A stretch of 64,000 nt of DNA from Isoetes taiwanensis (taxonomy: Eukaryota; Streptophyta; Lycopodiopsida; Isoetales; Isoetaceae). Position numbers and translations under genes: made by a program. The stretch covers positions 19,301,382-19,365,381 of the forward strand of contig JAJEKV010000001.1 in assembly GCA_021234155.1 (NCBI GenBank), given 5' to 3'. The notes below the pieces were generated by a model. The model worked only from the letters and a program-made list of their open reading frames with translations. It did not search any database and had not been told where the DNA came from. Of this stretch, positions 2,675 to 56,798 are shown in pieces (position 1 is the first letter of the stretch; every line of letters begins with the position of its first letter).

Positions 2675-3586
2675 TTATAATTGCACCAATGAACTATTCA
2701 GCAAATGACCATTAGTCATGGAATTCCTCTTCATAATCCCTGCACATAAATGATGAAGTCTTCCTGAGTGCAATCTACAATTATCCAGAAAACTCTGGCT
2801 GGTCTCTTCACTTATCCAGGATTTTGATCCGTAAGCCAATGTTTGCTTTGAATCTACCAAAAAATGTTCATGGTTAGGGTCTGAATCTCTGCTACACTCC
2901 CTGTTGCACTGGAATGTATATCCTCCTAAGATGCATAAAAGGTTCCCTGTAATTGCACCAATGCAGTTTGAAAGGGGATTGGCCAGGTCTGGCAGAATAT
3001 CCCATCTATCTTTTTTAAAGTCATAAGCCTCTACAGAAGCCAATGCCAGACATTCTTCCCCTTGACCTCCAGCAACATAGATTCTGTCGCCTATCATCAT
3101 GCAAGCAAATCCAATTCGCGCAGTCTTCATACTGGAACATTTATCCCATTTTTTGAAACTTGCAGACAGATCTATCTTATATACATCATTTAAGAATCTG
3201 CCTGACCTAGGATTCAATCCTCCCAAAACATAAACAGTGTTATTATGAAATGCAAAACGGTTACTCTGAGGAAATCCTGAATCTAGACCTGGAACTGGGG
3301 GCAATGGCTCCCAGGAACTCGTTTTAGGGTTAAAAAGTGATAAACTAAAGGTAGATTTTGGGGCTGGAGATACCCTGAGATTGAGATTGAAAGCAGAGTC
3401 TTGTACTTGGCTATGGCGACATGAGAGGTCCCGGAAAGCGGCTCGCCAAGCCTTACTTACCACTGCGGATGATTGAATATCAAACCATGAAATGGAAGGA
3501 AGAATCTCAGTTAGGGCGAGCTCCGGCGGAAGCCCTGGGATAATGGAATCTGAAGAAAGGTCCGAAATTGCAACAGGGTCTTCCAT
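2675..3586 (-). CDS. F-box/kelch-repeat protein
   Basis: An intact ORF of 303 residues. An F-box-like segment lies at about residues 17-57 (LPPELALTEILPSISWFDIQ then VVSKAWRAAFRD), the part that would bind SKP1 in an SCF ubiquitin ligase. Kelch repeats follow, each with the paired-glycine signature: VYVLGG near residue 117, IYVAGG near 167 and LLCILGG near 215. Such proteins choose substrates for ubiquitination through the kelch propeller. It is shorter than many plant family members (about 350-450 residues) and the last 80 residues do not look kelch-like, so the propeller may be incomplete or a further 3' exon may be missed. The start is supported by a pyrimidine-rich leader just upstream (3,590-3,660). 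The substrate cannot be inferred. Confidence 0.85.
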   Translation of the reverse strand: MEDPVAISDLSSDSIIPGLPPELALTEILPSISWFDIQSSAVVSKAWRAAFRDLSCRHSQVQDSAFNLNLRVSPAPKSTFSLSLFNPKTSSWEPLPPVPGLDSGFPQSNRFAFHNNTVYVLGGLNPRSGRFLNDVYKIDLSASFKKWDKCSSMKTARIGFACMMIGDRIYVAGGQGEECLALASVEAYDFKKDRWDILPDLANPLSNCIGAITGNLLCILGGYTFQCNRECSRDSDPNHEHFLVDSKQTLAYGSKSWISEETSQSFLDNCRLHSGRLHHLCAGIMKRNSMTNGHLLNSSLVQL

Positions 3587-3665
3587 ATCTAAGAAGAAGA
3601 AAAGAAGAGAGAGAGAAAAAGAACCTTGAACTCAACTGCGAAAACTGAGAAGAAGAAACCGCTTA
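3587..3665 (-). promoter_or_regulatory. Pyrimidine-rich 5' leader of the F-box/kelch gene
   Basis: On the minus strand the stretch just before the ATG is a run of C and T (TTTTTCTCTCTCTC with TTCTTCTTCT), typical of plant 5' untranslated leaders. No convincing TATA element is placed at a normal distance, so the transcription start is not assigned. Confidence 0.4.
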
Positions 3666-14865: not shown

Positions 14866-15113
14866 AATCTGTCTATTATGGAAAACATAATAATAAACAC
14901 TGTACTCTTTCAGATTTAATGAACCTTTCAGATCTAATGAACCTTTCAGATATTTGAACTGCTTACCACAGCCCATACTACACTTACTTTAGCATTCCAC
15001 TTATCTGCACATGGTGTGTCCTGGGTGTAAATAGTTAGCATCAATCTGTATACCAGCTTTTGTAAAACAATGAACATAGTTTCCACAGTATGGTCACTTA
15101 ACAGTTTAAATCC

Positions 15114-15145
15114 CATTAGGGCGGATTTGGGGTCTGAAAATGGCC
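15114..15145 (+). repeat. Left terminal inverted repeat of the 12.65-kb element
   Basis: Starts CATTAGGGCGGATTTGGGG and ends AAAATGGCC; it pairs with 27,735-27,766 with one mismatch over 32 bases. The flank to its left is the end of the processing-peptidase fragment region. Confidence 0.75.
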
Positions 15146-15397
15146 CTTATCTTGGGTTAAAGATTTCCACGTCAGATTCGCCAGGACCAATCAGGTTTGC
15201 GCCTTTTTTACGAAAGTCAGTATTACTTGGCAGGTAGAAGGATGAGCAGGCTTACTTGGCATCCACATGGCGTATTTTCATAGGGGATGCCTGCGCTTTT
15301 ATTGCAACCATTTTAATGGCCCGTATTTTTCGGGAGTCGCTTCGCCGCCCAAAATAATGGTGACTTTGACCGCCTACTGTCAGCGTCACCAACTCCC

Positions 15398-15841
15398 TTG
15401 TCAAATTTTGGCGCCAAACTTACTGTCTTGTCACTCAGCCTCTACGTGCATCCTCGCCTTCACTCCTCATCGCAATCCATGTCTTACGTAATTTACGTGT
15501 TCTTGCCCCATTTACAGAACTCCCAAGGTCAAGAAGTGGGAGGTTTTGTCTCAATAGGTTCGTGGGTGAGTATCTTTGCCATCAACGAGGGCGAGCATAG
15601 AGTTAAGCGACAAAGGCGATCGGACATGCGGACACATTGGATAGGTAGGATAAAAGAGTTCAAGTTGAATTCTAGCGGTAGGAAAGTGGAAAGTATAACA
15701 ATACGACATGCATATACCCCTTTCGATATGGCCAAAGAGCTAATCTCCACCAAAAACGACTTCCCAAAATTGCCCATAAATGGTAACCACCTTAATCGGA
15801 TCGCCGACGACGCCTTGAAGCTAGGCTGTCCTACTACTTAG
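15398..15841 (+). CDS. Uncharacterised ORF, weakly BAH-like
   Basis: A 147-residue frame whose C-terminal two thirds look protein-like: SWVSIFAINEGEHRVKRQ, then THWIGRIKEFKLNSSG, then VESITIRHAYTPFDMAKEL. The pattern of an opening strand, W-IGRI-E and a later V-I-R-Y-P-D resembles a BAH or related SH3-like chromatin-reading fold, but the match is weak. An acceptor-like TTTACAG at about 15,511-15,517 suggests that the real start may lie in an upstream exon. The gene ends inside the left arm of a hairpin (15,799-15,872). It is the first gene of the 12.65-kb element. Confidence 0.35.
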   Translation: MSNFGAKLTVLSLSLYVHPRLHSSSQSMSYVIYVFLPHLQNSQGQEVGGFVSIGSWVSIFAINEGEHRVKRQRRSDMRTHWIGRIKEFKLNSSGRKVESITIRHAYTPFDMAKELISTKNDFPKLPINGNHLNRIADDALKLGCPTT

Positions 15842-15872
15842 CTGCGTAGAGATAGTTTGGCGTCGTGTGATC
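15799..15872. repeat. Hairpin motif 1 of the 12.65-kb element
   Basis: Left arm GATCGCCGACGACGCC lies inside the 3' end of the preceding ORF; right arm GGCGTCGTGTGATC follows 18 bases after its stop. Imperfect arms, same core as the other copies. Confidence 0.5.
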
Positions 15873-16158
15873 TCCTTATCTTTCATTTCTTTTCGTTGAC
15901 GCGTGTTTACAAACAAATTTATTGTGCGGGTTTATGTTTATCGGGCGTCGTGGATGTCATTCCGGCCGAAAGTATTAGTAGTGTACTTGTGGGTGTATCA
16001 CATAGACATCGGAATTGTCCTTTTCAAGGTATGGATGCCGTGACCTTGCTTGGGGTATAGGCATCCGGTTTTACGGACATGATTATAATGTAAAGGTCGT
16101 GAAACCGAGCTTGAGGCGGTTGAATTGCCCCTTTAAGTGAACTTTGTAAGCCCACGGA

Positions 16159-16371
16159 CTAATGAGAACAATGTAATTGCAATGAAGAAATGCATGGTCG
16201 GCGAGGTGCAAGCGGGAATGTCTGAAAACAGAGGTGAGGATGAGTTTCAAAATCTTCTGCTTGTTTGAGGTATTTGCTAACATATTCGGATGGCGCGGGG
16301 AAGTTGAAAAGCTCCGAAGACATATACGTGCTTTCTCCCCCCTGCCGATTTTGTTCGATTCCACGAATCAT
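16159..16371 (-). other. Unrecognised minus-strand ORF
   Basis: 70 residues starting MIRGIEQNRQGG with ELFNFPAPSEYVSKYLKQAE further in. I do not recognise it. It would be divergent from the next plus-strand ORF at 16,591. It could equally be the shadow of something decayed. Confidence 0.2.
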
Positions 16372-16590
16372 CCGGTCAACTAACAGAGGTCCACGTAGTT
16401 AAGTCCTCCTTTAAGTTCAGATACTTTCTTCCAAAACAATATTTATACGTTAATTGTCAACTAGAGCGAAGGAAACGAGAAAAGAGAGGTCGCACAACTT
16501 TTTGGGAGCGTTTGTGGACCATAACGCATAACACTCGATGCGGTGGATATTCGAGTATGGAGAGGGGAGAAAGTCATTTATACAGCCACC

Positions 16591-16764
16591 ATGGAAAGCG
16601 AATGGCCATTATCAGAGCTAAGAGTGCTAATGGAGACATAAGAGATTGCTGACGACTTCCATTATTTTATTGATGGCATTAGGGTTGGTTACAGGCAAGA
16701 GGGAAATGTAAAGTTTAGTGAGTTCGCGATCAACAAGAAATTGTCTATCGCCCTGGCGCTTTGA
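16591..16764 (+). pseudogene. Small ORF with good start context, internal stop
   Basis: The sequence GCCACCATGG gives an unusually good initiation context. The frame reads MESEWPLSELRVLMET, a TAA stop at 16,639, then EIADDFHYFIDGIRVGYRQE and NVKFSEFAINKKLSIALAL before a final TGA. Read through, it would be about 57 residues. The family is unknown. Confidence 0.3.
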
Positions 16765-16939
16765 ATCTTGGTTTTTATTTGTGTTTTTGTCCAGATGTTT
16801 TTAGGGTTCCGTATTTTGTCCGATATTTTTTTAGGGTTCCGTACAATTATTTAAAAACGTTACCATCATATTTTACTTTAACTTCTGTTTTTTACTATTT
16901 ATCTCTTGCCAGTTGTCTATTTTTGTCGGTGTTAAGTAG

Positions 16940-16947
16940 TATAAAAG
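16940..16947 (+). promoter_or_regulatory. TATA box before the histone H3-like sequence
   Basis: TATAAAAG lies 28 bases before the ATG of the H3-like tail. This is closer than in the coiled-coil genes downstream, so either the leader is very short or translation begins at a later ATG such as 17,084. Confidence 0.4.
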
Positions 16948-16967
16948 CGCCATCCATTTGAGAAGCC

Positions 16968-17791
16968 ATGGCAAGAACTAAGCAAGCCGCAAGGATCCAT
17001 CCGGTGGTGTAAGGCGGTGATTACATTAGTCCGCCTCCTTCATCTCGAATCTGAAGTCTCGATAGAGATTCTCCTCCTCCGACCATGCCTAACGAAGACC
17101 GGAAAAGAGATCCGCATGATGACGGCGGGAGAAGCGGCCTCCGGGAGTAAGTAGGGAGGTGCACTCCGGTTCGGAGACGGGGGATGGAAATGTGAGAGAC
17201 CGGCGAGCAGAATATGACGCCCGGATTAATTATTGGGCAGCGGCTCTTCTTGCTCTTACGCGCTCCTCTGCTCCTCCTGTGGATGCGCCGGAACCTTCAA
17301 ATCAAAGGAGGAGGCCTAGCGCCCGAAAGGGAAACGCGACCAGAGAAATGTGAGGAGGCTGACCAGGAAGAGTCGGCCGAGGAACGACACCGCAAATCTT
17401 TGGGGTGAGGAGATGGCGGAAGAGTCGGCCGAGCAACGAGCTCAAATCTTTGGGGTGGATGAGGGTGGCGGAGCGAAGGCGAAGCGGCATTAAAAGCGCC
17501 AGCGAGATTAAGAAGTATCGAAGAAACGAGATGGTCATTCGCGTCTCCCATTTGCGGGCTCGTGAAAGAGATTCTCGCAAGAGTGTGGTGCGATACATCA
17601 TACCGATTCTGAGGAATTCAAGCAAGCGCCTTAAATGCTCTTCAAATGGCCGGGCGGTTGGTGTCGGTGCATTCGAGGACTTCGCGGCTTGCGGCAATAC
17701 ATGCCAAGCGGGTGGTATCATGCCCAAGGACATGCGCCTCGTCTTACGCATAAGGGATCCGAAAGTACTATGGTCAAAATTTTATGGCTGA
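16968..17791 (+). pseudogene. Histone H3-like pseudogene
   Basis: The ATG at 16,968 opens MARTKQAAR, the H3 tail. The next bases match the codons of the K-S-T-G-G-K segment but are frameshifted. About 430 bp later an H3 core can be followed across frames: ASEIKKYRRNEMVIRV (alpha-N), LVKEI (alpha-1 start), the alpha-2 region, AIHAKRVV (loop 2) and IMPKDMRLVLRIRD (alpha-3). Single-base indels move the frame at about 17,542, 17,560, near 17,650 and near 17,710. The tail-to-core distance is far beyond that of a normal H3, so there is an insertion, a long-tailed variant or two fused copies. Histones package DNA in nucleosomes; this copy is broken. It is embedded in the 12.65-kb element. Confidence 0.65.
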
Positions 17792-17960
17792 ATACAACAA
17801 GAAGAAAGACCCCCGAAAAAAGGCCGTGAAGTGCCTTTGTGTTTTTTTCATATGTATAATATTTCTTAATGTAATGGCTTTATAAGCTTAATCTCTTAGT
17901 CCATTTATTTCTTAGAAGCCTAGCCGCACTTTGTATTTTTTTTTTTTAATGTTATCGTGA

Positions 17961-18030
17961 GGATCACCACGGCCAGCGACAAGCATTGTGCTTTTTTGTT
18001 GCACATAGTAGTCTTGGCGTCGTGTGATCC
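17961..18030. repeat. Hairpin motif 2 of the 12.65-kb element
   Basis: Left GGATCACCACGGCCAGCGAC and right TGGCGTCGTGTGATCC are imperfect inverted copies. It follows the H3-like pseudogene by about 170 bp and precedes the next ORF by about 16 bp. Confidence 0.55.
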
Positions 18031-18045
18031 AACCCTAACCCTAAA

Positions 18046-19110
18046 ATGTGCGGACAAATCTCCCACAGCGGCTGTGTCCCCTTTCATAATCGACAGCGGC
18101 TACTTGAGTTGAAGTGGCGCGCCTTACCGGCTCCTAAACATCTTCTTGCTTTTAAATTAGATTACGCCGCTATGGATTGTTATGTGAAGTTCTTGGAATG
18201 GTATGCATCCGCCCCTCATGACAACGAGGAAGTTCGCGCCGATTGCGATTTATCCGTTCTATTGCAAGGAGTTGGACATCATGATCATGGCAAGCGATGG
18301 CGAGCTTGGATGCTATCGCGAGGTTGCCTTAGCTTTCACCGGACAGCTTGATCTCGGCGCCGACGTCCTTTCTGCGGATGTCCACGGCTCGTGAATTCCA
18401 AAACCAGCTCTAGGAGGCGGCTTCCCATTTGCAAGCGAGGGAAGATGTTTTTCAAGAATCTTTGCGAATAGCGGGCTCCTCCCGGCTGCGTCCTTGTGCT
18501 TAAGAAGGTATCTTATTTCTCTTTGCCGTTTGCATTTGCTAGTTATTGCATTACCTTTCGGCCAAACCGAAGATACACTTGGAAACAATGAAATCTTTAA
18601 GCCAAGGGGTCGAGTTATGTGTGATGATCTTTGACTATGGCGTAGAAATGGAGATAGATCTACAAGAAGAAGAGCAAGAATGTAGGAGTTTTAGCCGGCC
18701 TTGGCCTTGGGTGAACGGAGGAGGGATGATGATACGAAGGTGATGAGGATGGGGATGAGGATGAAAAGAAGTTGTCGACATAGCGCCAATTTTAGTGGAA
18801 GGCAAAGAATACCTATTGCTAAGTGATATCTTGAGGAACCCGTCTTTGTTCTGAATGTGTGCTAGGGAAGACGAGCTTATCAATTACCTTGGCGAATGGG
18901 TAAACTTAGGCCTAGATTTTGAAGAGGATTTGGACAAAGAGATGTTTGAAGTGTCTAATTATACGGCAATGCTATAAAGCTTAAAGAAGCCTATGAGAGG
19001 CTGGAGTCTCGATTTGCTCAAGATGAGGCGAATCTACCAGCGGAAGAAGAATTCCAGTGTCTCAGGTGCAAAGTTGCCAGCGGGGATCTGAGGTTTGGCG
19101 GCCCCCTTGA
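18046..19110 (+). pseudogene. Possible PCNA-like remnant
   Basis: At 18,108 the frame gives LELK and later YAAMD, then 20 residues on RADCDLSV. This matches the spacing in eukaryotic PCNA between AMD and the R-x-D-x-N/D-L-S segment without a gap. A shifted frame then gives LDIMIMASDGEL, like the D-I-I strand with A-D-D-G. Near 19,050 EEFQCLRCKVASGD resembles the start of the second PCNA half (EF-R-C-DLSS-GD). PCNA is the DNA-polymerase sliding clamp. Each piece is short and the frames are broken, so this is a suggestion only. If it is wrong, the region is simply unassigned degenerate coding sequence. Confidence 0.3.
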
Positions 19111-19580
19111 TCAATCGCGGCAAAAGCATAAGCCTCGTAGATGAGGATAAATGTGAAGAAGATAAGCTTGAGGGTTCTTATTTGTGGGAAGTAGATGATT
19201 TTTCTTGCCGACATGCACGGGGACAGGAAAGATTGAAGGACTCTACATTGTTACGATATATCTCAAGATTAGTTAATGGGGAGATAATCGTCTTCGGGAG
19301 AACTTTCAGTCCAAAAGGTGCGAGTTTGTCTATTACATCCGTGCATTATGCATGTTAGGGGAACCATTCCCAATTGGCATCAAACGAAAGGGTGATAGCA
19401 ATTCGGGCGGGATGTTGTGCTACAATATTTTGGCGACCAAGCCGGTCTCTTGAGGCGAGCAATATGTTAAATTTTTTAGGCTGGCGGCTTGACTCACCCA
19501 AGGTTGGAAAAGCTGGGGTCGATAACATGGAAGTCATTGCCTTGTTAGATCGGTCTGTGCCGGGGATTGAAAGAGCATGA
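19095..19580 (+). other. Unassigned ORFs downstream of the PCNA-like remnant
   Basis: Two short plus-strand ORFs (19,095-19,358 and 19,374-19,580) contain LVDEDKCEEDKLEGSYLWEV and RPSRSLEASNMLNFLGWRL. I do not recognise them. They may be the tail of the preceding decayed gene in other frames. A single hairpin half-site, GGCGTCGTGTGAT, follows at 19,751. Confidence 0.2.
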
Positions 19581-19818
19581 AATTGGCAATGAAGCTTGAA
19601 AAATTGGAAGTTATATATTTTCCAACTTGTATCGGTAAAATTATTTATGTCTGATTGTCCTTCCGAAATTCCTAATAAAAATTATTTTATTTGTATTTAT
19701 TCACATCACTTGAAATACATCGGTCGATTTTTACGTCATATCTAGGTTTTGGCGTCGTGTGATATTTATCTCGAAGAAATGAAATATTATTGGAAAAAAC
19801 AATTAATTTATTTATTCC

Positions 19819-19850
19819 TCACACGGCCGCGAGAAGCAACTTCGTGTGAC
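19819..19850. repeat. Hairpin motif 4 of the 12.65-kb element
   Basis: A tight hairpin, TCACACGGCCGCGAGAAG against CTTCGTGTGA. It ends 7 bases before the TATA box of coiled-coil copy 1. An unpaired half-site of the same motif is at 19,751-19,763. Confidence 0.6.
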
Positions 19851-19856
19851 TCATGT

Positions 19857-19865
19857 TATAAATAG
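19857..19865 (+). promoter_or_regulatory. TATA box of coiled-coil copy 1
   Basis: TATAAATAGAAGACC, identical to the element before copy 2, lies 93 bases upstream of the ATG at 19,950. Confidence 0.6.
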
Positions 19866-19949
19866 AAGACCGATGTTCACTCGACCTCCGTCGCCTTCCA
19901 CCTTCTACTCATCTTCTACTTCCGGCTTCCGCCTTCCACCTTACGCTCG

Positions 19950-20349
19950 ATGGCATCATCATCTTCCTCTAGCAAGTGACCACGCCAAGATAGCACTCCC
20001 GGTAGCCCAGAGCTGCCGTGGACATCACCCTTGCGGTGGTGATGAAGCGATTCAAGGAGATCCATGATGAAAACAACCGTCGTCGTCGCCGAGAGAATAT
20101 GGAGGGGTCGACCAGATTAGCCTTCACGAGGGAGGCTGGACGCGGCGACATTGAGCTCATGGAAACATTAGCCATGTACCAAGAGGCGGCGAGCCGCAGG
20201 GGCGAGGCGGTTGAAACTGCTCCACGGTATTTCGCGAGGCCTTAGAAGATATGGAGAAGAAGCTCCGAGCTGCGGAGGAGGATGAGAACATGACCTACGG
20301 CTTCGGTGCGGGACATGAAAATCAGCTAGAGGATCATGAAGATCCCTAG
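19950..20349 (+). pseudogene. Coiled-coil gene copy 1, decayed
   Basis: The ATG opens MASSSSSSK and is stopped at once by TGA. After a frame change the family core appears: ITLAVVMKRFKEIHDENN, then EAASRRGEAVETAPRYFARP, with a further frameshift near 20,230. Leader, core, 3' end (CCCTAGCCRTTGTAT) and following hairpin all match copy 2, so copies 1 and 2 arose by duplication of a unit of roughly 0.8 kb. Copy 1 has since lost its frame. Confidence 0.65.
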
Positions 20350-20448
20350 CCGTTGTATCTATCTATTTTTTGCTTCAAAGAAAAGTTTTCTCTATTTTTT
20401 GCTTCTATCTATCCTCTTGTTCCAATGTATGTTCTGTTTTATTAAAAT

Positions 20449-20513
20449 ATCACACGACGCGAAATGCTTTGCTTGCAATTAGGTAGCAATCAATGGATTT
20501 CGCGTCGTGTGAT
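20449..20513. repeat. Hairpin motif 5 of the 12.65-kb element
   Basis: Perfect 17-bp arms, ATCACACGACGCGAAAT and its reverse complement, with a 31-base loop. It starts 100 bases after the stop of copy 1. The loop is nearly identical to that of the hairpin after copy 2. Confidence 0.85.
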
Positions 20514-20625
20514 CTCCATGCTGTTCTATTTTGCTTCAATGAGAAGTTCTATCTTTAGTTATGTATCAGTAAAATTACTTATGTATAGAAGAAAAGACGT
20601 TAGAAGAAGTAACAGTCCTTTTTCC

Positions 20626-20687
20626 TCACACGACGCGAGAAGTAACGGTCCATTTTCCTGACCAACGGCATCCTTCGCGTCGTGTGA
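20626..20687. repeat. Hairpin motif 6 of the 12.65-kb element
   Basis: Arms TCACACGACGCGA and TTCGCGTCGTGTGA around a loop of about 35 bases. It lies 25 bases upstream of the copy 2 TATA box, so two hairpins stand between copies 1 and 2. Confidence 0.8.
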
Positions 20688-20711
20688 CTCAAGCTACTAC
20701 GAAATCCCTGT

Positions 20712-20720
20712 TATAAATAG
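20712..20720 (+). promoter_or_regulatory. TATA box of coiled-coil copy 2
   Basis: TATAAATAG, 88 bases upstream of the ATG; identical in sequence and nearly identical in position to that of copy 1. Confidence 0.65.
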
Positions 20721-20799
20721 AAGACCTTCTATCTTGCCTTCGACCTCCGATCCTCTTCCGCCTTCTGCTCATCTTCTCCGCCTTCCGCCTTCTCCTCCG

Positions 20800-21141
20800 A
20801 TGGCATCTTCATCCTCCTCCAGCAAGCGACCGCGCCCAGAGCTGCCCGCGAACATCACCCTTGCTGTGGTGATGAAGAGATTTAAGGAAGTTCACGACGA
20901 AAACAGCCGTCTCGTCGCCGAGAAGATGGAGGCGGTGGACAGGTTAGAATTCACGAGGGGGTTGCTGCATGAGGCGGCAACATTAACCAGGTACCGAGAG
21001 GCCAATAGCCGTAGGGTCGAGGCAGTTTTAACTGCACACAATATTTCGCAGGCGCTAGAAGATATGGAGAAGAAGCTTCGAGCTGCGGAGGATGAGAACG
21101 CAGCTTTACGGCTTCAACTACAGGATCATGAAGGTCCCTAG
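20800..21141 (+). CDS. Small coiled-coil protein, family copy 2 (intact)
   Basis: 113 residues. The N-terminus is MASSSSSSKRPRPELP, a serine run followed by a basic KRPRP patch that could act as a nuclear signal. The family signature ITLAVVMKRFKEVHDENSRL follows. The remainder has heptad-like leucine, alanine and glutamate spacing through LEDMEKKLRAAEDENAALRL, so it is likely an extended helix or coiled coil. No enzymatic motif is visible and I do not recognise the family outside this element. The start was chosen because it matches the ATGGCAT context of copy 1 and sits at the same distance from the TATA box as in all four copies. A hairpin follows 86 bases after the stop. Confidence 0.6.
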   Translation: MASSSSSSKRPRPELPANITLAVVMKRFKEVHDENSRLVAEKMEAVDRLEFTRGLLHEAATLTRYREANSRRVEAVLTAHNISQALEDMEKKLRAAEDENAALRLQLQDHEGP

Positions 21142-21226
21142 CCATTGTATATATATTTTTTGTTTCAAAGAAAAATTTGCTCTATTTCTTGCTTCTATCT
21201 GCTCTCTTGTTTTGTTTTATTAAAAG

Positions 21227-21291
21227 ATCACACGACGCGAAATGCCATGTTTGCAATTAGGTAGCAATCAATGGATTTCGCGTCGTATGAT
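21227..21291. repeat. Hairpin motif 7 of the 12.65-kb element
   Basis: Arms ATCACACGACGCGAAAT and ATTTCGCGTCGTATGAT (one mismatch) with a loop almost the same as hairpin 5. It follows coiled-coil copy 2. Confidence 0.85.
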
Positions 21292-21660
21292 CTCCACAAC
21301 GTACACCTCGTTGTATGTATAAATTCCTAATTTATTAATGGAAAAGTATATGTAACACAAATATCTAGCTAGATTATGTGATAACTTGCAGGTAAATGCG
21401 AATTTGCATGTGGATGACAACGTCTATTCACATACGTGGCATGTGGATGACAACGTCATGCCAAGGATGTGGCATGCGCTGCCACAATAACTGCTTGTCT
21501 TTTATGCGGCACGCATACGATGCGGCTGGGATATGGCCGGATCCCATGATGCGAACATAGGCTACCGTTGCCTAATTGCATGCTATAATTTCGCCTCGTA
21601 GGATTATTACACAACTTTATCGGTACTCGCAACCGTAGATTCCAACATATCTCTAGTTTC

Positions 21661-21668
21661 TATATAAA
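21661..21668 (+). promoter_or_regulatory. TATA box of coiled-coil copy 3
   Basis: TATATAAA, 98 bases upstream of the ATG at 21,759. Confidence 0.5.
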
Positions 21669-21758
21669 ACGTCGGAGGCCTTTGTCTTCTCCTATCTGCC
21701 ATCTCCTGTTCTACCACATCCGCCCTCAGCCATCTCTCCTGTTCTCCCATCACTTTCA

Positions 21759-22312
21759 ATGGCCTCCGGCTCAGTTCCATCCCTGCCGAGATCTTGTCTC
21801 AAGTTACGGTCAAGGAAATTGAGAACATTCGTCTTTGAGGCGGAGGAACGGATCCGCCTTCTAAAAAAAAAAAATGATGAAGACGTCGCTTAAAAGCTGG
21901 TTGTTAAGAGGACAAGGCCGCCTTCTATAGGAAGGTGATTTTAGTGCGCGACAATCAGCGGGCTGCCTTAGACCGCGAATGTGCGGCGCCACGAGATATA
22001 ACCTCAAAGAGGCTTAGGGCGCAATCGAAGCGGGAGAAACTGCCCGAGCTCAACTTCGATGGCGGGAAGATAAGGTTCGCGGAATATGAGAAGCGTGGTT
22101 GCGGGGGGGGCAATCATGTTGGAGGAGCGAAAAAAATTATCACCGCCCTCGGGAAGAGCTTGCTGGCGATCATAGGCATCGGGCTCCTCCTAGAGGGGCC
22201 CGTTTTTTTAATGTTTGTAATGGTTTTATTTCTCAATGGGAAAAGTTTTTGACAAATGTGAGCCGAATATTACGTTTCCTATTTTTAATTTTCAATATCC
22301 GTGGTAGAGAAT
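21759..22312 (+). pseudogene. Coiled-coil gene copy 3, diverged and frameshifted
   Basis: Opens MASGSVPSLPRSC; in the next frame the family core can be seen as LPAEILSQVTVKEIENIRL, aligning with LPANITLAVVMKRFK of copy 2. Beyond this an A-run at about 21,861-21,871 and further stops break the frame. A basic ORF at 21,935-22,252 (RDNQRAALDRECAAPRD and KRLRAQSKREKLPEL) and an overlapping one ending at 22,314 continue helix-like sequence. The promoter spacing and the hairpin after it mark it as a family member despite low identity. Confidence 0.45.
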
Positions 22313-22320
22313 GACAAGGC

Positions 22321-22385
22321 AGATCACACGGCGAAACCCTTCATAGGGTTTTAAAGCTCATGTGCGATTCAGCGTGGTGTGATCT
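22321..22385. repeat. Hairpin motif 8 of the 12.65-kb element
   Basis: AGATCACACGGCGAA against TTCAGCGTGGTGTGATCT, imperfect arms, about 9 bases after the end of copy 3. A second small inverted pair, AACCCTTCATAGGGTT, sits inside the loop. Confidence 0.65.
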
Positions 22386-22528
22386 GATGTAGTTAGAATA
22401 GTTATTAATGTGTTCCAAAGGACGGTACCATTAATGTGTTCTAGCGGACAACCGAGCGAGAATCCGCTTCGACACGTCACGGCAATGACCACCGAATCGT
22501 GTGTTTAATATGTTCAAGCGCTAATATG

Positions 22529-22535
22529 TATAAAT
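22529..22535 (+). promoter_or_regulatory. TATA box of coiled-coil copy 4
   Basis: TATAAAT, 93 bases upstream of the ATG at 22,622. Confidence 0.5.
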
Positions 22536-22621
22536 TGAGGTCCTTGCATTGTGCTCCTTCCGCCGGTTAGAGTCTTTGCTCCTCACTTCCATAATCTTAA
22601 CGTCCCTCCCATTTGTCATCT

Positions 22622-23147
22622 ATGGCCTCCACATCCTCAACCGCTGATAAGGGAAAATGCAAGAGGATAGAACTCCCTTCTGACATAGTGTTGGGTGTTC
22701 TAATGAAGAGGTTGAAGGAGCAAGATGATCTTCTAAAGGAAAACGCCGTTACAATTCAGCAGAAAGAAGAAGAGAATGAATTCAACCTTCTCATGCCGTA
22801 GCGGGGAGAGGCAAATCAGACGGTTGAATAGAAGGTCGGGGATGACAAGCCCCAACAAGCCGCGACCGAGGTGGTTATGGCGGCAACGCAGGTTGCTAAT
22901 TGAGGCAGAAGAACACGTTGTGCTATTGGGACAGGAGCGGGACATGTACAAAGAGATGGTGGACAGATTGGAGGAACGTTTGGATAGGGTGATTGCTCGC
23001 TTGAGGAGAAGAGATGAAGACGAAGACGAGGACGGAGCTGATGATGATGATAAAGATAATGAAGAAGAGCTTCGCCTTTGGAGCAACAATGAGTCGTTGT
23101 ATTTTGTTTTTCAATGTAACATCTTTCACAACTTTAATCAAAAGTAA
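22622..23147 (+). pseudogene. Coiled-coil gene copy 4, one frameshift
   Basis: The frame from 22,622 reads MASTSSTADKGKCKRIELP, then the signature IVLGVLMKRLKEQDDLLKEN, and ends at a TAG at 22,799. The overlapping frame 22,776-23,147 continues with EAEEHVVLLGQERDMYKEM and VDRLEERLDRVIARLRRRDE, strongly coiled-coil, then an acidic Asp/Glu tail. A single frame change near 22,790 would join them into a protein of about 170 residues, so this copy either lost its frame recently or uses a small intron I did not detect. It ends 28 bases before a hairpin. Confidence 0.5.
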
Positions 23148-23174
23148 CCTTTTTTTATTATTATCTTGTAAAGC

Positions 23175-23238
23175 TTCACACGACGCGAAGCCACATAAAT
23201 GCAAGCAATAGCGAACTCCACTGTTCGCCCCGTATGAT
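23175..23238. repeat. Hairpin motif 9 of the 12.65-kb element
   Basis: TTCACACGACGCGAAG against TTCGCCCCGTATGAT, imperfect. It follows copy 4. Confidence 0.6.
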
Positions 23239-23247
23239 ACAAATAAG

Positions 23248-23312
23248 ATCATACGACGCGAAGCTACAGTTGTGCAAACAAGGTTGGAGGCAAGTACTTC
23301 GCATCGTGTGAA
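23248..23312. repeat. Hairpin motif 10 of the 12.65-kb element
   Basis: ATCATACGACGCGAAG against CTTCGCATCGTGTGAA. It begins 14 bases beyond the stop of the minus-strand gene, so each of two converging genes has its own hairpin. Confidence 0.65.
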
Positions 23313-23323
23313 CATGCTACACA

Positions 23324-26301
23324 TTACAAGTATACTTTACCGATTCTTTGTCTCTTAGATCTCCACTGTTGCGATGCTAGTGGGGCCCTAGAATTTTGCC
23401 AAGCAACTTTCCGTTTTCTCTTCAGCATTATGCCAATGGTGTTTACGACTTCTGGGTTGCTCCTTAAAGCGACCTTCTTGTCGTATTTAGCCATCACCCT
23501 TCTATAAAACCACTCTGTCATCTGTCTTAGAGGGTTGGTTCCCACATTTCCACCCCCTCTTTGAGTGTTACGATGAAAGGCTATTTTAGCTTGTTTATGC
23601 GATTTCTCCATGCCTTGTGCACTCCAAGGGGGATTCACTCATTTATAAGGGGGATATGCCATCTGCGTGCATGGGGTGGCAAAAAACCCCCCTGTATACG
23701 GATCTTTAAAAGCAAATTTTGACCCCTTTCGAATAAAAATTACCTAGGATAGTGCAAAAAATACCAGAAAAAGGATCCCCTGCCGACCGTATATGTACGA
23801 AAATGGGTCCAAAAAAACCCCTTCCCGTGCATGCAGATGGGTTATACGCCCAAAACTGTGAACCCCCCTTGGTGCACTCCACACTGCTAGGCTTCCATAC
23901 TTCCTAAAAAACCAAGGTGCATGAGCCCAAAAGATGTGCAAGTAGTGCGTGACTTCACTCTCTCCCCATGCGTCTATGAAAGCTTTAATAAATTTGTTAT
24001 TCGCTTGCACGAACATTTCTGCATCTTCTCTTGTGAGGTCCATTCTCTGAATGTATAGGAACAATTCAGACAATGCATCCCATGCTTTTTTTTTCCTCAA
24101 TGCCGAACGAACGCCATCTGTGCGGTCCTGCTCCGCATCAACCAGCAATTTTCCAAATTCATAGACCTTTTCTCCCATCTGGTTTCCGTTCAGAGCCTCT
24201 CTATGATTCTTTATGAAGCGTCGAGCTTTCACCCCTCCAATTGACACCTTACGAGGCACACTTGTTCTTCCTGCCCGTTTCTCATCGAGCTCTAATCTTA
24301 CATTGCCACCATGCAAACCTGCTTCTGATAGAACATGTTCAACTCTACGAATTCCTTCCTCTCTTCTCTTCTTGTCTGAAATGTTCCACACGAATCTGCA
24401 GCTCAAAAATATCATCTTGTCGATGATTCTCAAGCCGTGCAAAGTGCAGATATGAACCCTCTCTAATGGAATGGGGAAAATGCCATGGAACTTGGGATCT
24501 TCTTCTCCTCTATTAGGAGCATTTGCTTGGTTAAGGGACAAGGTTGAAACAGTCTTCCCGATTGCTTGACTTCCTTGCATAATTGCGATGGACAATTTTT
24601 GCATGTTCCTTGTCCTCCTCCACTTATGTTGTACATTGCTTTCGGTTTTTTAAATCGGGGCGCCAAGTGAAAAATTACTTTGTAAGATCCATAGTGATCT
24701 ACTTGCAATTTTCCCCTCCCTCGAATCTAGATATTGGGACTTCGGGATGTGGGTTTGATTGAACACCCATTTCAATACCTCGTGGGTTTCTTTCTCGAAC
24801 TTTAAAGAGACCTAACCACCGGTGTCATCTTGATTGACATGAGAACCATTTTTCGGCACGCTTCTTGTCCTCGTCCGTCACCTCTATATCTTTTTTATTA
24901 TTCTTGTTGCTCTTTGATTTAGTATGTGCAATTGCATTCTCAATTGCTCTATTCATGATGACAACGGATACCCTCTCATACTTCTCAAACTTGGTCAGGT
25001 CCATTTCATCCAATTTTATGCAAATTTCAATCTCACCATTAGTTTCGCAATTTGTTAAGTCATAATATTTGACAAGGAATTGTAAGAGAGTAACCGGGTC
25101 AACCCAAAGATTATTGCGTTCATTCATTCCAACTATATCACAACAATCCTTGCCATTCTTATCTTTTTTATGGCTATGGGCGGGACCAAAGCACATTCAA
25201 CGTGGTGCATCTCTCCTAATATGTCATACACCATCTTTGTCCTAGTAACCCTTGTATTCTCGACAATTTGTGGACGTGGAGCGAATACTTTTTTTGTGCC
25301 CATTCTTTTCAACGCTTCATGGAATGGCTTGAATAGAGAACGGTAACCAAGCCTCACGATGCCTACATCATCACAAGCGGTCGTACATCTGTCGCTTCTA
25401 ACTTCTTGTAGATCTCTCCTAGTACCATTTCCAATACCATCTTCTTGAGAGGAGAGTTGTAGGGCTGACAAATCATGTCCACTATCTCCCTGTTTGTCGC
25501 TAGGTTCTTCACTACGTAACCAAGATTGCTTCTAGTTTCCCCAGATCTTAATTGGCCTTTGCTAGTGTTGTAAACGGACCTTGTGGCCGTGACCCTGCGT
25601 CTGAATGCACCTGATCCAAACTTCAGTTCCTCTATCGGTCGATAGTGCTTCTTCCTTTCTCGCAAGCCAAGGGGTGTTTTCTTCAAATTCTTTAACCTAC
25701 ATTGAAGCCCAAAGTTTGCTCTTTCGAGCTCTTGGATCTTTTCTTGCAGCTGCCCTATCACCAATTTGGACTTGTCCACTTCATTATCTCAAAGGCGTTT
25801 CCCTCCCCAAGCCGTCATTCCTTTCCTTCATCACGGTGGAGTAATGAAGCGAGAGAAAAAAGAGCTCTTTGGTTTAAGTTATAATTCTCTTGTGACAATC
25901 GGGGGCGGCTCATCTCAAGGAGGCGTATTCGATTCGAATGCCTTCATCCTCTCTCAATCTCTCACAATATCCCAAGAGGCCGAGTTACCATCACCACAAA
26001 ATCGGATTTGAACTTGAAACGTCCGAAATGACGGTTTCTTGCCACTCAACGGATCCAATGGATATAAACTGCCATCCGCCCAGATGTCGACACTTTTTGA
26101 GCCTGCAAGACGCAACATGTCGAGGTCTAAGTTCTTATTTTTTAGACCTCCTTTTTTGCGATTGAAGACTGGAGCATATTCGTGAGTCAGTTGGATCCTT
26201 ATCCACACATCATTTGGAGCTTCCATACCGCTGGATTGCACGGCGCGAAATGAAGGTGTACAATTTGTATGCCCTTGCACAATTCGCTTCGTTAAGAACA
26301 A
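23324..26301 (-). pseudogene. Long degenerate gene of unknown family, candidate transposition or replication gene
   Basis: A series of overlapping minus-strand frames reads like one decayed protein. In order: 26,301-25,954 (TPSFRAVQSSGMEAPNDVW, LDLDMLRLAGSKSVDIW); 25,779-25,363 (coiled coil IGQLQEKIQELERANFGL, then ICQPYNSPLKKMVLEMVLG); 25,471-25,133 (LFKPFHEALKRMGTKK, KMVYDILGEMHHVECAL); 25,196-24,825 (CIKLDEMDLTKFEKYERVSV); 24,604-23,324 (TLHGLRIIDKMIFL, WGESEVTHYLHIFWAHAPWF, then after a MITE QGMEKSHKQAKIAFHRNTQR). At least four frameshifts are present. It is the only large gene in the element and runs opposite to the rest, as a transposase might. I do not recognise a DDE or other catalytic motif, so function is open. 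Confidence 0.45.
23625..23871. mobile_element. hAT-like MITE in the long minus-strand gene
   Basis: 247 bp with terminal inverted repeats CAAGGGGGATTCAC and CAAGGGGGGTTCAC and a perfect 8-bp duplication GTGCACTC on both sides (23,617-23,624 and 23,872-23,879). Eight-base duplications and CA-G-starting ends are usual for hAT elements. The host reading frame resumes exactly across it (SLAVWSA then QGMEKS), so the insertion came after the gene was in place. Relatives lie near 8,440-8,640 and 28,390-28,600. Confidence 0.85.
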
Positions 26302-26329
26302 GGAAAAAAAATAAGATCCTTAACAAATT

Positions 26330-26661
26330 TCATTCATCTGCTTCACCATCTGCAAAAAAAAAATAAGAAATAACTGTTAGTTAAATGCTTAAGAAAAGAA
26401 AGAAAACATGCATGTACCATGAACTAACGCCATGAGCTCCTCGAAGTCAGCGGATTCGTCTTCAACTGTGATGAACTCCTGCTCCGAAATTTCCTCTGAT
26501 TCCTCATTCTCTGATTCCTCGTCAAAGGAATCAGAGGAATCAGAGGCATTCAGAGCAAGAACCGTGGGCAGCGAAGGGAACTGCGGAGGGAACACCTCTT
26601 CCAGCCGTAATAGGCGCCTCTTGGAGGACACCTCTGGCTCTTCCGTAGCTGATCTCTTCAT
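26330..26661 (-). CDS. Small two-exon acidic protein
   Basis: Exon 1 (26,661-26,418) encodes MKRSATEEPEVSSKRRLLRL, a basic start with KR clusters, then an acidic and serine-rich stretch (SDSSDSFDEESENEESEEIS) and FEELMALVH. A GTACATG donor follows; a pyrimidine tract and TGCAG acceptor lead to exon 2 (26,349-26,330), which adds DGEADE and a TGA. Total about 87 residues. I do not recognise it; composition suggests a nuclear acidic protein. It directly precedes the long minus-strand gene and could be its first exons if the splice differs. The intron (26,417-26,350) is 68 bp. Confidence 0.45.
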
Positions 26662-26851
26662 GGCGATGGACTAGAGAAATTGGGCGGAGGATCTAGCAAA
26701 GATTGGGCGGAGATTGGGGGGAGAATGGGCGCCAATCTAGGCTGGAATAGATATAGGCTGGATTAGACGTGAAAATCGTAGGAATGATTCGTATTCCAGT
26801 CCTATCAACCATCATTACAGGCCATTATGTGCATATCTCGAAATTTGAGCC

Positions 26852-26960
26852 ATATCCAATATCTTCCTTTTTTAACCTTATTCCTAAATATCCAATATCT
26901 TCATTTTTTAACCTTATTCCTAAATATCCAATATCTTCTTTTTTTAACCTTATTCCTAAA
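26852..26960. repeat. Three tandem copies of a 36-bp unit
   Basis: The unit ATATCCAATATCTTC plus TTTTTTAACCTTATTCCTAA is repeated three times with few changes, upstream of the acidic gene on the minus strand. It may lie in that gene's promoter region; no function is visible. Confidence 0.85.
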
Positions 26961-27129
26961 CCTATATGATTTGAGTTTAACCTGAAAATGAACAACGATA
27001 TAATTCGAATTTAACATACTATTTAATACCAAGATGCTACGTCACACTATGTCGATAATTGGGATTTAAAAAAAAAACACTCCAAACCCTCCTCGAGAAA
27101 ACCACGTAAGTGCCGACCTCACTTTGTGT

Positions 27130-27318
27130 TTAATTTGACAACAAGCAACTTCCATCTTGTGTAGATCGACGGCCTTGAAATGAAGGTGTGGTATTTTTTA
27201 TGCCCCAACACAATTCGGCCATGATGAGCCGAACGTCAGTACTAACCGTTTTTGAAATTTGCAACGTGCATATGGAAATCGAAAAGTCCATTCTCCTACA
27301 ATCCATGCTTTTATACAT
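27130..27318 (-). pseudogene. Second copy of the start of the long minus-strand gene
   Basis: The frame contains AELCWGIKNTTPSFQGR, which parallels IVQGHTNCTPSFRAVQS at about 26,260, and the DNA around GAAATGAAGGTGT is shared. It therefore looks like a duplicated, truncated 5' piece of the long gene. Too short to be functional. Confidence 0.35.
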
Positions 27319-27734
27319 TAAGCAAATTCAAATTTCGAATTGTAGGGCGGAAGCCTGTATTAGGATGAAGTGAAGATCGGTTAAAGCGCGAAATGGCCCC
27401 TCGAAATGAAAGTCTGATCTGATACAAAGCTTCAACCTACACATTCAAATTTTGAAATGTAGAAGGCGGTGACGCGCACGCTTGGTATCTGACAAACCAA
27501 GAGACACCGTCATGAGTTGCCGGTATGCTATAATGCAAGTGGCATTTTAGAAGCGCCACGTGTTGCATCAGTCCGTCTGACAACCAACAGAATTAAATAC
27601 ATATGGCGCCATGAATGTGCAATCCCCCTTATTCCGGAAGAATATTCCAAGCAAATCTGTAATTATGAGAGTTTGGTATCCTAGGTGGCATGGGAAAAAA
27701 GGAGCGGAAATATGACGTGGAATGGCTGATAGGA

Positions 27735-27766
27735 GGCCATTTTGAGACCCCAAATCCGCCCTAATG
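27735..27766 (-). repeat. Right terminal inverted repeat of the 12.65-kb element
   Basis: Reverse complement starts CATTAGGGCGGATTTGGGG and matches 15,114-15,145 with one mismatch. Confidence 0.75.
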
Positions 27767-28385
27767 TGAACTCATTTAACTAGTGGCAGATGTGCCACTA
27801 GCAACCTTTAGCCTCTGTCAGTCTGCAACTAAATTTAGCCTATGAGCTACAGCTAGATGCATATTCATCCTCATGTCTAAAGCTCAGACCAATTCATGAT
27901 CATTATACTAATGCCTATCGAATCAGAAGACCATATTCAATAGGTTGAAAATAGTCATAACTTAGGCCATCTATCTATTCAACCTATATTTGCATGAGCA
28001 TATAGAGCCAGTATCAGGCACGTTTTTGTAGCAAATGATTCTATGAACCTGAGATAACTAAAGCCAACAGTCAGACTTAGAATAATACAAAAAGAAAGCA
28101 TGAAGACACAAAGATCAAAATGATAAAGACGATGACTATGAGGAATGGTTAATATTTGAAAGCAGTAAAACAAAATGCATATGTGATCTTTTCTAAACCT
28201 TGAGCAGAGTCTCGGGCAGAGTCTTGAACAGATATAGGCGATGTCAATGTAATGGCGATGCTCCTGAAGATCATTTTGGATGTCAAAGTAATGGCGATGC
28301 TCCTGATGACCTAAAACTTAAAAAATCAAATGAAGAAATGAAGAAACAGGAAGCCTTTGGAAAACTAGGAGCTGGGATGAAGCTG
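27767..28385. other. Spacer with a short direct repeat
   Basis: Mostly AT-rich. A direct repeat at about 28,242-28,311 (ATGTCAAWGTAATGGCGATG then CTCCTGAWGA) lies in a short ORF ending FGKLGAGMKLGDGS. That ORF reads like a gene-fragment tail but I cannot name it. Confidence 0.3.
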
Positions 28386-43739: not shown

Positions 43740-44510
43740 TATAAGCTTATAAGCTTACATGCAGAGAATATTTCACTTGTAGATGAGCAGAAGAGCTTGA
43801 TCTTAGCTAATATGTGCTCCAATCACGCAAAGTAATCCTCGACCTGAAAGAAATAGGGCAGTAAACTCCGTTACCTAATTAGGCTTAAGCTGGAAGCATA
43901 ACAAATACAATATCATCTCATAGTTATCATGTTTTCTAAAATAGGTACAACTACTGCTGTAATGTGGACTGAAAGAAACCTCTAAAAAACGTGAAGCGTA
44001 TCCTGGCCATACCATGCCGAATCTACAAAAGCAAAGCACCGGGCCTTTAAATCATGAATTGCTGATAGCATATCCAGAGTACAGGTTTGAAACCAAAACG
44101 TAGACCCATATTTGTTGCAAAATTTAGCTCTTGAAACCATTTTATGAGTCAGATATCCATCTCGACCTGTCTGAATCCATGAAAAAACCTCCTACGGATC
44201 TTGTATCAACAAAGACAAAGATCAATCATCCGAAAAAGAGATAGAATCATACCTTATGGATGGTTTTCCTGCTCTGAATCTGACCCACTAACGGTTTGCA
44301 CAGAAAAAGAGGGCAAATCATGGCATAATGCATGCCGATCTGGCCGAGATTAGAAAGGGAAGAATAAAAATCTAAATCATAGCAGAGGAAAATTTTGCAA
44401 TTTTTGGCAAATCGGAAAGATTTCCGGCAGCCAAAATATCCCAAAACCTTAGGAAATTAATTTAAGGGAAAATTCCAAAAAGTTTTCGGAACCTCAGAAA
44501 AACCGAATTT
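43740..44510. other. Right end of insertion A, no recognised gene
   Basis: AT-rich, short ORFs only. The last bases before the copia sequence resumes are CAGAAAAACCGAATTTAAAC. Confidence 0.4.
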
Positions 44511-44514
44511 AAAC

Positions 44515-46719
44515 AATAGGATATATTTCCATCATCTTTGAGTTTAGTGAAACCCTGCTCCCTCAAATCTGTATCCATGCACAAATACCATTTCCTAGGT
44601 GATTGTTTCAGCCCATAAACAACTCTTTTTAATTTCCACACTTTGTTTTTCCCTTGTTCAAACCCTGGAGGTTGCTTCATATAAATATCCTCTTCTAGTT
44701 TTGCATTAAGGAAAGCAGTGGTAACATCCATGTGATGTACCTCTAAGTTTTGAGCATTCGCCATAGCTAACAGCATTCTTATGCTTGTCATCTTCACTAT
44801 AGGAGAAAAGGTATCATCATAATCAATCCCTTGTTTTTGGGAAAAACCTTGGGCCACTAGCCTTGCTTTGTGCTTTATCTTATCTCCTTCAGTACTCTGC
44901 CTAATTTTGTATATCCATTTGCATCCTACAACATTTTTACCATTAGGTAAGTCTACTAATTCAAAAGTTTTAGTTCTCTTGAAAGCATCAAGTTCTTCTT
45001 CCATTGCATTAGTCCAATGATTTGCATCTGAACTCTCCATAGCTTCTTTGAATGATTTGGGAACTTCAAAGTCTATCATTGCTAATATCTCAATGATATT
45101 TATCTCTGCTGCATTATGTTTCAATCTCCTGCTTCTACCTGAGGGATCTCTACCAAGTAAATCAGTACTTACCTCTTTGGCCTCGTCTTGTAGTATTTGA
45201 GCATTAGTTCTTCTCCCAATCCGAGCCTTGGCTTCTGTTGTTTGCTCCTCTTGTGCAATGATTTGTCCTTCCTCTAGTGATTGTTCTATTTGTATATTTG
45301 CAACTTTATTGTCCTGCAAAACTGTTGCATTAGTTTCAAGGTCATCATCATAGATGCTGGTTACTTTGTCAAATGATTGTGCCTTTTGAGGTGAATCCCC
45401 TTGCTTGACTGTCACATCTCCTGATTTATAATCTTTATAATATTGACTTTCATCAAAGACAACGTCCCTGCTGACTACTACTTTTCTCCTTGCAGGATCA
45501 AACAGCCTATAGGCTTTAGAGTGCTCATCATATCCAACAAGATAGGCTATTAAAGCTCTATCATCAAGTTTCTTCCTTTGCTCTTTAGGAATATGCACAA
45601 ATCCTAGACATCCATAACTTTTTAGCTTGTCATAATTTGGCTTATTGCCAGACCAAAGTATCTCAGGTAAAGATCCATTAATACTTGCTGATGGAAGTAT
45701 GTTTTGTACCTCAACTGCAGTTCTAACTGCCTCTTCCCATAAGAAGTTTGGCAACCCTGTGTGTTTAATCATTGCTCTCACTGCATTTAATATTGTTCTG
45801 TTCTTCCTCTCTGCCACACCATTTTGTTGTGGAGAATGAGAGCATGTTAATTGCCTTTTTATTCCCTTTGCTTTGCAATAAGCTTTAAATCTGGTTGACA
45901 AGTATTCTCCTCCCCTATCCGATCTTATACACTTCACTTTGTCTCCTGTTTCAAGCTCTACTTCTGCAACATAATTTTTGAAAGCCTCAAAGGCTTCATC
46001 TTTTGTTCTCAAGCACTTCACCTTGGCTTTTCGACTATAATCATCTATGAATGTAATAAAGTATTTTTTACCTGTAATGCCTCTTACATTAAGAGGTCCA
46101 CATAAGTCTGTATGTACCACTTTCAAGATTCTCTTAGCTCTCTTATTTGATTTTTTGAATGGTAATCTGGTATGCTTCCCAACCATACAACCATAGCACA
46201 ATTTGTTTTCATTCTCAATTTGGCAATGCTCGATTAATCCCTGTTTTGCCATGGCCAGAATGTTTTTGTTACTTGTATGACATAATCTTTGATGCCAAAT
46301 GTTGATATCTGAACCTATAATTGCATTTACACATGGCACTTGATTATTTTTCAAACCAAAAAGGTTTCCTACTCTTTTTCCCAGAAATTTGACTTCATTA
46401 TGCATCATAATAGTACATTTCTTTCTGTCAAATATGACAGTATATCCCATGTCCACAAACTGGCTGATTGAAATCAAATTTCTTACTAATGTAGGTACAA
46501 ACAAAACATCCTTTAAGACAACTGCATTTCCTTGAAGATCAAATAATTCTAAAGTTCCAGAAAGTTGAATCTTTTGCAAGCCTCCATTCCCCAATCTGAT
46601 ATAGCCTCCTCTCTCATGTTTCTCATCCTTAGAAGTTTAGCAGACTCTGTTACTGTTTTCTCTGCTCCACTATCTAATATCAACATATCATTTGCATCAT
46701 TAGATTGCTTCCTAGAATT
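44515..46719 (-). pseudogene. Copia protease, integrase and first part of reverse transcriptase
   Basis: Starts with the protease motif MLILDSGAEKTVTESAKLL, then shifts frame by one base near 46,635 into an ORF of 710 residues (46,594-44,462; its last 20 or so residues are read from insertion A). Integrase follows: the H-H-C-C zinc site (WHQRLCHTSNKN with LCYGCMVGK), the D-D-E residues in HTDLCGP, RSDRGGEY and NGVAERKN, then a linker. Reverse transcriptase opens with VVGCKWIYKIR, RLVAQGFSQKQGIDYDDTF, HHMDVTTAFLNAKLEEDIYM (motif A) and VVYGLKQSPRKWY. It stops at the insertion A junction after DDGNISY. Family lengths are normal. Confidence 0.9.
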
Positions 46720-56650: not shown

Positions 56651-56798
56651 GATCAAAGTACGACCAATCATGGTGGTGATAAGTCGTGCAATAAATCTCG
56701 GCCTCCGGATGCACTCAGATGATCTCGACCATTCAAATTAGGGCTTGATCCAATCCAAGAATTACGGTATAACATTATAATATAAGATCAACAGAAAT

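Follow-up and report, generated by a model that had tools for sequence, protein, structure and literature searches.

What is the 12,653-bp block that fills positions 15,114–27,766 of a 64,000-nucleotide stretch of the Isoetes taiwanensis genome (assembly GCA_021234155.1, contig JAJEKV010000001.1, positions 19,301,382–19,365,381 of the forward strand; hereafter the window)? An earlier note had described it as a block of small genes enclosed by 32-bp inverted ends, and had suggested either a new class of cargo-carrying transposon or the remains of a large DNA virus. We consider it likely that the block is a copy of a large DNA transposon family of Isoetes, probably recently active, that has its own probable DDE transposase, is joined to its target by unstaggered cuts without a target-site duplication (TSD), carries cargo genes in a set order, and is studded with palindromes that would serve as protein-binding sites. 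This agrees with the first of the two suggestions: the ends are fixed, the ordered interior is shared, and the insertion is clean.

Ends, copies and site of insertion

The left terminal inverted repeat (TIR; 15114..15145, plus strand) and the right TIR (27735..27766, minus strand) are each 32 bp long and match at 31 of 32 positions in the window. Their alignment extends to 15111–15145 against 27735–27769, with 94% identity over 35 nt. In four other copies (L017, L020, L025, and L027) the two TIRs are identical (32/32). The host genome (1,658,258,908 bases in 1110 contigs) was searched with both ends. The best 40 of 1434 first-look candidates for the left end were scored and were 99–100% identical, as were the best 40 of 1596 for the right end at 98–100%; the candidates are raw counts rather than verified copies. 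Matches to the left end mostly stop at 15114, and those to the right end stop at 27766 in most of the 40 rows, which places both ends to the base where the earlier note had put them.

Twenty of the 39 other scored left ends, those ranked next after the window's own, were fetched as 10-kb stretches starting at the left end. All 20 open with the same CATTAGGGCGG as the left TIR of the window, beside unrelated flanks. The interior follows that of the window beyond 21 kb in 18 of the 20, some with gaps; L021 and L023 diverge from it at 18.7 and 18.0 kb, respectively. Both ends were read in five copies besides the window: L012 (11,669 bp), L017 (13,581 bp), L020 (13,538 bp), L025 (13,522 bp), and L027 (13,556 bp). 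L014 and L015 were also read further, but the sequence covered holds no complete right end; for L015, one lying 17.6 kb away was assigned by position. The order of genes is constant across the copies read. Paired ends with a shared interior, for which the earlier note had proposed a genome search, are accordingly present, and they point to a transposon family that is real, abundant, and probably young.

The window copy was inserted without a TSD and without loss of bases. Its left flank was found at four other places, three of which were fetched. All three are continuous through ...AGTTTAAATCC|TGAACTCATTT..., with no base gained or lost, such that the sequence interrupted at 15113..15114 joins directly to that at 27766/27767. 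These empty sites, obtained by the comparison of occupied and empty sites that the earlier note had advised, are the decisive evidence for insertion without a TSD. The window insertion site is C|T. Over 13 copies, the overlap between the two junctions is 0 nt in 10 and 1 nt in three. These 13 comprise all six complete copies and seven in which the two ends are linked through position and orientation alone, the middle being partly or wholly unread; the ends of the latter could belong to different copies, and these seven therefore weigh less. Duplication of a TA target, an early guess, was dropped in view of the starts of the copies and the empty sites.

The element is also distinct in composition, as claimed previously. 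Its GC content is 0.447, as compared to 0.385 and 0.401 for the 5-kb flanks and 0.397 for the rest of the window, in which some stretches also reach 0.5. L017, L020, L025, and L027 have ~1 kb extra near the right end, with a segment ~76% like window 27149–27743, and this arrangement is absent from the window copy and L012. This extra stretch, at ~11.2–12.4 kb of the copy, holds a second version of the right-end region (75–76% similar) inside the element, perhaps the trace of an older end or of a fusion. A 36-bp unit is repeated three times in tandem near the right end of the window copy (26852–26960), and matches in other copies suggest a different number of units. L028 has two runs of the element; the second (window 16352–19472) comes after the first at 6.85 kb of the copy, and the arrangement may be tandem or nested. 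The window copy itself holds a nested insertion of 246 bp (23626..23871) with inverted ends beginning AAGGGGG and a 9-bp direct repeat (23617–23625 and 23872–23880), of the MULE-like miniature inverted-repeat transposable element (MITE) type. All 13 sister copies with sequence at this site lack it, and it is not part of the family.

A probable DDE transposase and the meaning of its broken frames

The earlier note had pointed to one long opposing gene and had seen no recognisable transposase. The gene is there, on the minus strand from 26226 to 23324 (23324..26226), but it aligns from end to end with an uncharacterised D/D/E family. Residues 5 to 889 of the protein P0009 are covered by the alignment, with 296 of 799 residues identical, and the window gene has ~11 frame breaks (11 in this alignment) in addition to the nested insertion. 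Four relatives were found (E 9.8e-81 to 1.6e-53), and a profile built from these four retrieved 21 proteins, 20 of them new; one carries an organism name, the fern Adiantum nelumboides. In the host genome, 51 of 3595 first-look candidates were scored, yielding 88 matching stretches, several of them in open frames of 860–931 aa.

Nine proteins were compared for motifs, with L043, L046, and L017 being partial. All nine have both the D of K(L/M)DE and that of (W/F)HLxxDLK, and seven have GME(K/R)SH. The D-D-E spacings in P0009 are 97 and 277. The long opposing gene probably encodes a DDE transposase, its uncharacterised family having these D, D, and E residues conserved. The motif pattern may also be shared by some animal proteins. 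No relatives of the transposase were confirmed in viral contigs, within the limited reach of pattern scans, or in prokaryote genomes. Other lineages of this transposase family, with open frames 47–54% identical to that of L017, occur at L041, L043, L046, L047 (877 aa), and other places in the genome.

We propose that the probable DDE transposase encoded by the element recognises both 32-bp inverted ends and inserts them into the target through unstaggered cuts, in which case no target duplication would form.

Every long frame in the window copy is broken, and across the copies read the transposase gene stays uninterrupted for at most 513 aa. The pattern of differences among copies bears on how these breaks arose. 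For four long copies, the chance that a differing column is followed by another is 0.48–0.56 against an overall rate of 0.09–0.13, a clustering to which multi-base gaps contribute; identical runs of at least 40 take up 34–42% of the columns, against 3–10% expected; and the difference rate shows a 3.6-fold rise close to CG or CHG sites. Gaps between copies are one or two bases long in 1545 of 1803 cases. Over the first 300 bp, five copies show 99.1% identity, although copies were selected by that end. The Isoetes assembly was built from nanopore reads and polished with racon and pilon (PMC8566536). Most of the frame breaks would then be long-read consensus errors in repeats, as judged from the pattern of differences. 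Because the breaks look like assembly errors, the window copy need not be dead, and a reading of it as mutated and dead was set aside on the grounds that the clustered small-gap differences resemble consensus errors. Such scrambled clusters near CG and CHG sites occur in the window element, L012, L017, L020, L025, and L027, and gene calls in the repeats of this assembly need care.

The same broken frames, together with the open frames of 860–931 aa at related genes elsewhere in the genome, would also be expected of a Pack-type or otherwise nonautonomous element, that is, one with captured host genes, moved by a transposase encoded elsewhere, with its resident transposase-like gene as cargo. 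We consider this unlikely. The transposase gene is present in the copies that reach its region, the breaks have the look of assembly errors, and in the loci of eight relatives neither these ends nor the palindrome arms described below turned up, with three mismatches allowed, in the ~1.5 kb on either side of the gene. An element that encodes its own probable transposase accounts better for these observations.

Several points weigh against the interpretation of the element as a recently active transposon with its own transposase and TSD-free joining. The identity of the transposase rests on sequence, and neither it nor its homologues have a Pfam family above the cut-off; Pfam RAG1 near the last E reaches only E 0.079, which is not significant, and a search of PDB with the transposase profile returned only a coiled-coil protein (E 0.036). 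The exact E motif is unmatched in two of the nine proteins compared (P0011 and L041), and the window copy reads differently at the second D, which L017 has. The empty sites pertain to a single insertion, that of the window copy. In four of the 13 copies (the window, L022, C1088, and C1035), the two ends have a 5–6-nt word in common at a distance of up to 15 nt, though never at both junctions. The scored ends are the best of long candidate lists, so their identity overstates the youth of the family. Finally, the attribution of frame breaks to consensus errors is itself an inference.

Cargo genes and palindromes

Besides the transposase, the element carries about nine further genes in fixed order: a histone H3 variant, four coiled-coil paralogues, acidic proteins, and orphans. 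The histone-like sequence reported earlier lies at 16969..17800 on the plus strand and consists of a MARTKQ(T/A)AR start, a long linker, and an H3 core. In the window the gene is broken; it matches H3 with E 1.3e-5 in one frame and 0.027 in another, and the Pfam scan of window pieces did not list a histone match. A frameshift-tolerant alignment to H3 scored 124, as compared to control maxima of 39 (40 Markov sequences) and 41 (40 shuffled H3 sequences). The core is open in L022, where a 132-aa frame with the H3 fold matches Pfam Histone (E 9.7e-29) and an H3.2 chain (E 2.9e-27) and has a 4-residue insertion in the first loop. L014 and L017 have MARTKQTAR followed by the long linker. These matches identify the H3-like sequence as a genuine H3 variant. 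Variants of the CENH3 type are deposited at centromeres and have a divergent tail and a longer loop 1. The element's variant resembles these in its first-loop insertion and long linker, yet has the canonical MARTKQTAR start.

The family of coiled-coil genes that had been noted was recovered as well, with cc1, cc2, and cc4 related by alignment through a segment of the type LPxxIxLxVxMKRxKE, and cc3 joined to these by eye. All four are on the plus strand: cc1 (19951..20350), whose frame is broken here; cc2 (20800..21141), which is open and encodes 113 aa; cc3 (21760..22175), broken here and 138–139 aa in L013 and L017; and cc4 (22623..23147), broken here and 156–158 aa in L012 and L025. The genes cc1 and cc2 sit in tandem-duplicated units, and TATA boxes lie upstream of the H3 gene and of cc1 to cc4. 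Among 5.8 billion proteins, 328 candidates for relatives of this family were retrieved, none at E <= 1.

The remaining plus-strand genes are gene 1 (15479..15841), an open frame of 120 aa with no known family; gene 2 (16031..16760), with open frames of 143–188 aa in other copies; one or more open frames at 18046..18600 (101 aa here and 150–185 aa in other copies), which may be part of the next gene; and an acidic protein gene (18617..19600), open for 317 aa in L022 and 300 aa in L020 and broken in the window. On the minus strand lies a gene for a small acidic protein (26335..26661), which by eye probably has one intron. No Pfam family was found above the cut-off for gene 1, gene 2 (three copies), the 317-aa acidic protein, or the small acidic protein. 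To the eye, gene 1 is slightly BAH-domain-like, and neither Pfam nor PDB gave a match in support.

The element is further marked by a recurrent motif, as the earlier note had maintained. A 14-mer has 18 matches in the window at up to three mismatches, against 1.39 expected, and 17 of the 18 are inside the element. The motif forms the arms of bipartite palindromes, with 16-nt arms set 47–56 nt apart and mostly 49–51 (spacings of 40–59 were scanned). At up to 10 mismatches in 32, 11 such palindromes occur in the element and none in the rest of the window, where one occurs at 11; Markov controls (n=100, same spacing range) had a mean of 0.02 and at most one. Numbered from the left, palindrome 1 (15801..15872), with arms GATCACACGACGCGAA and its inverted counterpart, is followed by palindromes 2 (17965..18029) and 3 (19699..19764), the last with a short partial one behind it at ~19819–19850. 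Palindromes 4 (20448..20514) and 5 (20624..20689) come next, with 5 directly upstream of the cc2 TATA box, and then 6 (21226..21292), 7 (21540..21605; upstream of the cc3 TATA box), and 8 (22322..22384). Palindromes 9 (23174..23239) and 10 (23247..23313) lie behind cc4 and the transposase gene, respectively, and palindrome 11 (26234..26298), the weakest with 10 mismatches in 32, lies between the small acidic gene and the start of the transposase gene. The other complete copies have 9 (L012), 12 (L017), 10 (L020), 11 (L025), and 12 (L027) at up to 11 mismatches, mostly at corresponding places, and two of these are perfect.

The palindromes of the window are 68% alike in their arms, which were chosen by the motif and are thereby favoured, 35% in their centres, and 30% in their flanks. 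This, along with their absence from the rest of the window at up to 10 mismatches, disfavours the idea that they are copies of a MITE. Most likely they are binding sites for a regulator or architectural protein encoded by the element, which would bind the near-identical arms beside most genes. It is also conceivable, with a lower though appreciable probability, that they form RNA hairpins at the ends of transcripts or serve as sites of cassette exchange. In keeping with hairpins, nine of the 10 genes listed have a palindrome shortly after their end or overlapping it, two palindromes are side by side between the convergent cc4 and transposase genes, and among the eight that were folded the best two have z of −9.1 and −7.8 (the weakest, a partial one, has −1.7). 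Other palindromes, however, are situated just upstream of the cc2 and cc3 TATA boxes. Covariation between arms was not detected among the window palindromes, a weak result because the arms are perfect in some copies where those of the window have mismatches and assembly error seems to account for much of the variation. As for cassette exchange, none was seen, with gene order being the same in the copies read. Binding of a protein remains the preferred role.

Outside of the element, the window has an unbroken frame at 2675–3631 that is F-box/kelch-like by eye, an unbroken 724-aa frame at 44462–46636 that is copia polyprotein-like by eye, and a long pyrimidine-rich tract with strong strand skew at 55400–57000 that opens long low-complexity frames. 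Scans of the window with Rfam at the gathering threshold and for tRNA were both empty.

Relation to known elements and significance

The element appears to fit none of the transposon families tested, being set apart by TSD, ends, target site, and Pfam and PDB searches, with Repbase and Dfam outside the comparison. To our knowledge, TSD-free insertion by elements with inverted ends is rare, and its mechanism is an open question. Spy transposons of the PHIS superfamily are described as having inverted ends, a DDE-type transposase, and no TSD, and as inserting within AAATTT (PMC4482050). The Isoetes element is similar in its inverted ends and lack of a TSD, but none of the 13 sites is AAATTT. PIF/Harbinger-type families gave no match to the transposase in Pfam scans, and their TWA target duplication is not seen here. 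The D-D-E spacing of RAG1 is ~108 and 254, similar to that in P0009, but Transib and RAG make 5-bp duplications, and none is found here. Likewise, the 8-bp duplication of hAT and the TA duplication of Tc1/mariner do not occur at these sites. Helitrons also lack a TSD, but their ends are not inverted repeats and their insertion site is A|T, unlike the 32-bp inverted ends and C|T site of this element.

CACTA elements have CACTA/CACTG ends and a 3-bp duplication, and MULEs an 8–11-bp duplication; here the ends are CATTAG and neither duplication is present. CACTA, MULE, and Pack-type elements are, like this one, plant DNA elements with inverted ends and genes, but here a gene set in fixed order is common to the copies read. 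Pack-type elements are without a transposase of their own; here a transposase-like gene of putative activity is present.

The second suggestion of the earlier note, the remains of a large DNA virus, is very improbable, and so is a Polinton-like element. The size, compact multi-gene set, histone gene, and many copies are reminiscent of such entities, as are the palindromes near gene ends, a feature known from Mimivirus. But viral families (capsid, packaging ATPase, and PolB) were absent above the curated cut-off in the translated pieces scanned, among them two sets of ten from the window that yielded no transposase family above its cut-off either, with broken frames limiting reach, and pattern scans, also of limited reach, found no relatives of two cargo genes in viral contigs, matching the result for the transposase. 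The transposase-like gene and plant-type TATA boxes argue against a virus, as does the lack of a duplication, Polintons making one of 6 bp. A transposon family with its own probable transposase remains the better account.

A bolder extension of this account, which we hold to be rather doubtful, is that the family represents a new superfamily of giant TSD-free plant transposons with a self-regulated gene set, in which the palindromes, with their identical arms, constitute a private regulon or cassette-exchange system and the H3 variant serves to mark or package the DNA of the element itself, thereby escaping silencing or steering integration. No description of such an element was found in the titles and abstract openings of the literature searched. 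The published Isoetes repeat library dropped repeats with homology to plant proteins (PMC8566536), a filter that could have hidden repeats bearing histones. The many near-identical ends and the clear empty sites make the mechanism of duplication-free insertion testable in this family. If a mobile element retains an H3 variant within a gene set common to its copies, this would directly exemplify the engagement of host chromatin by a transposon.

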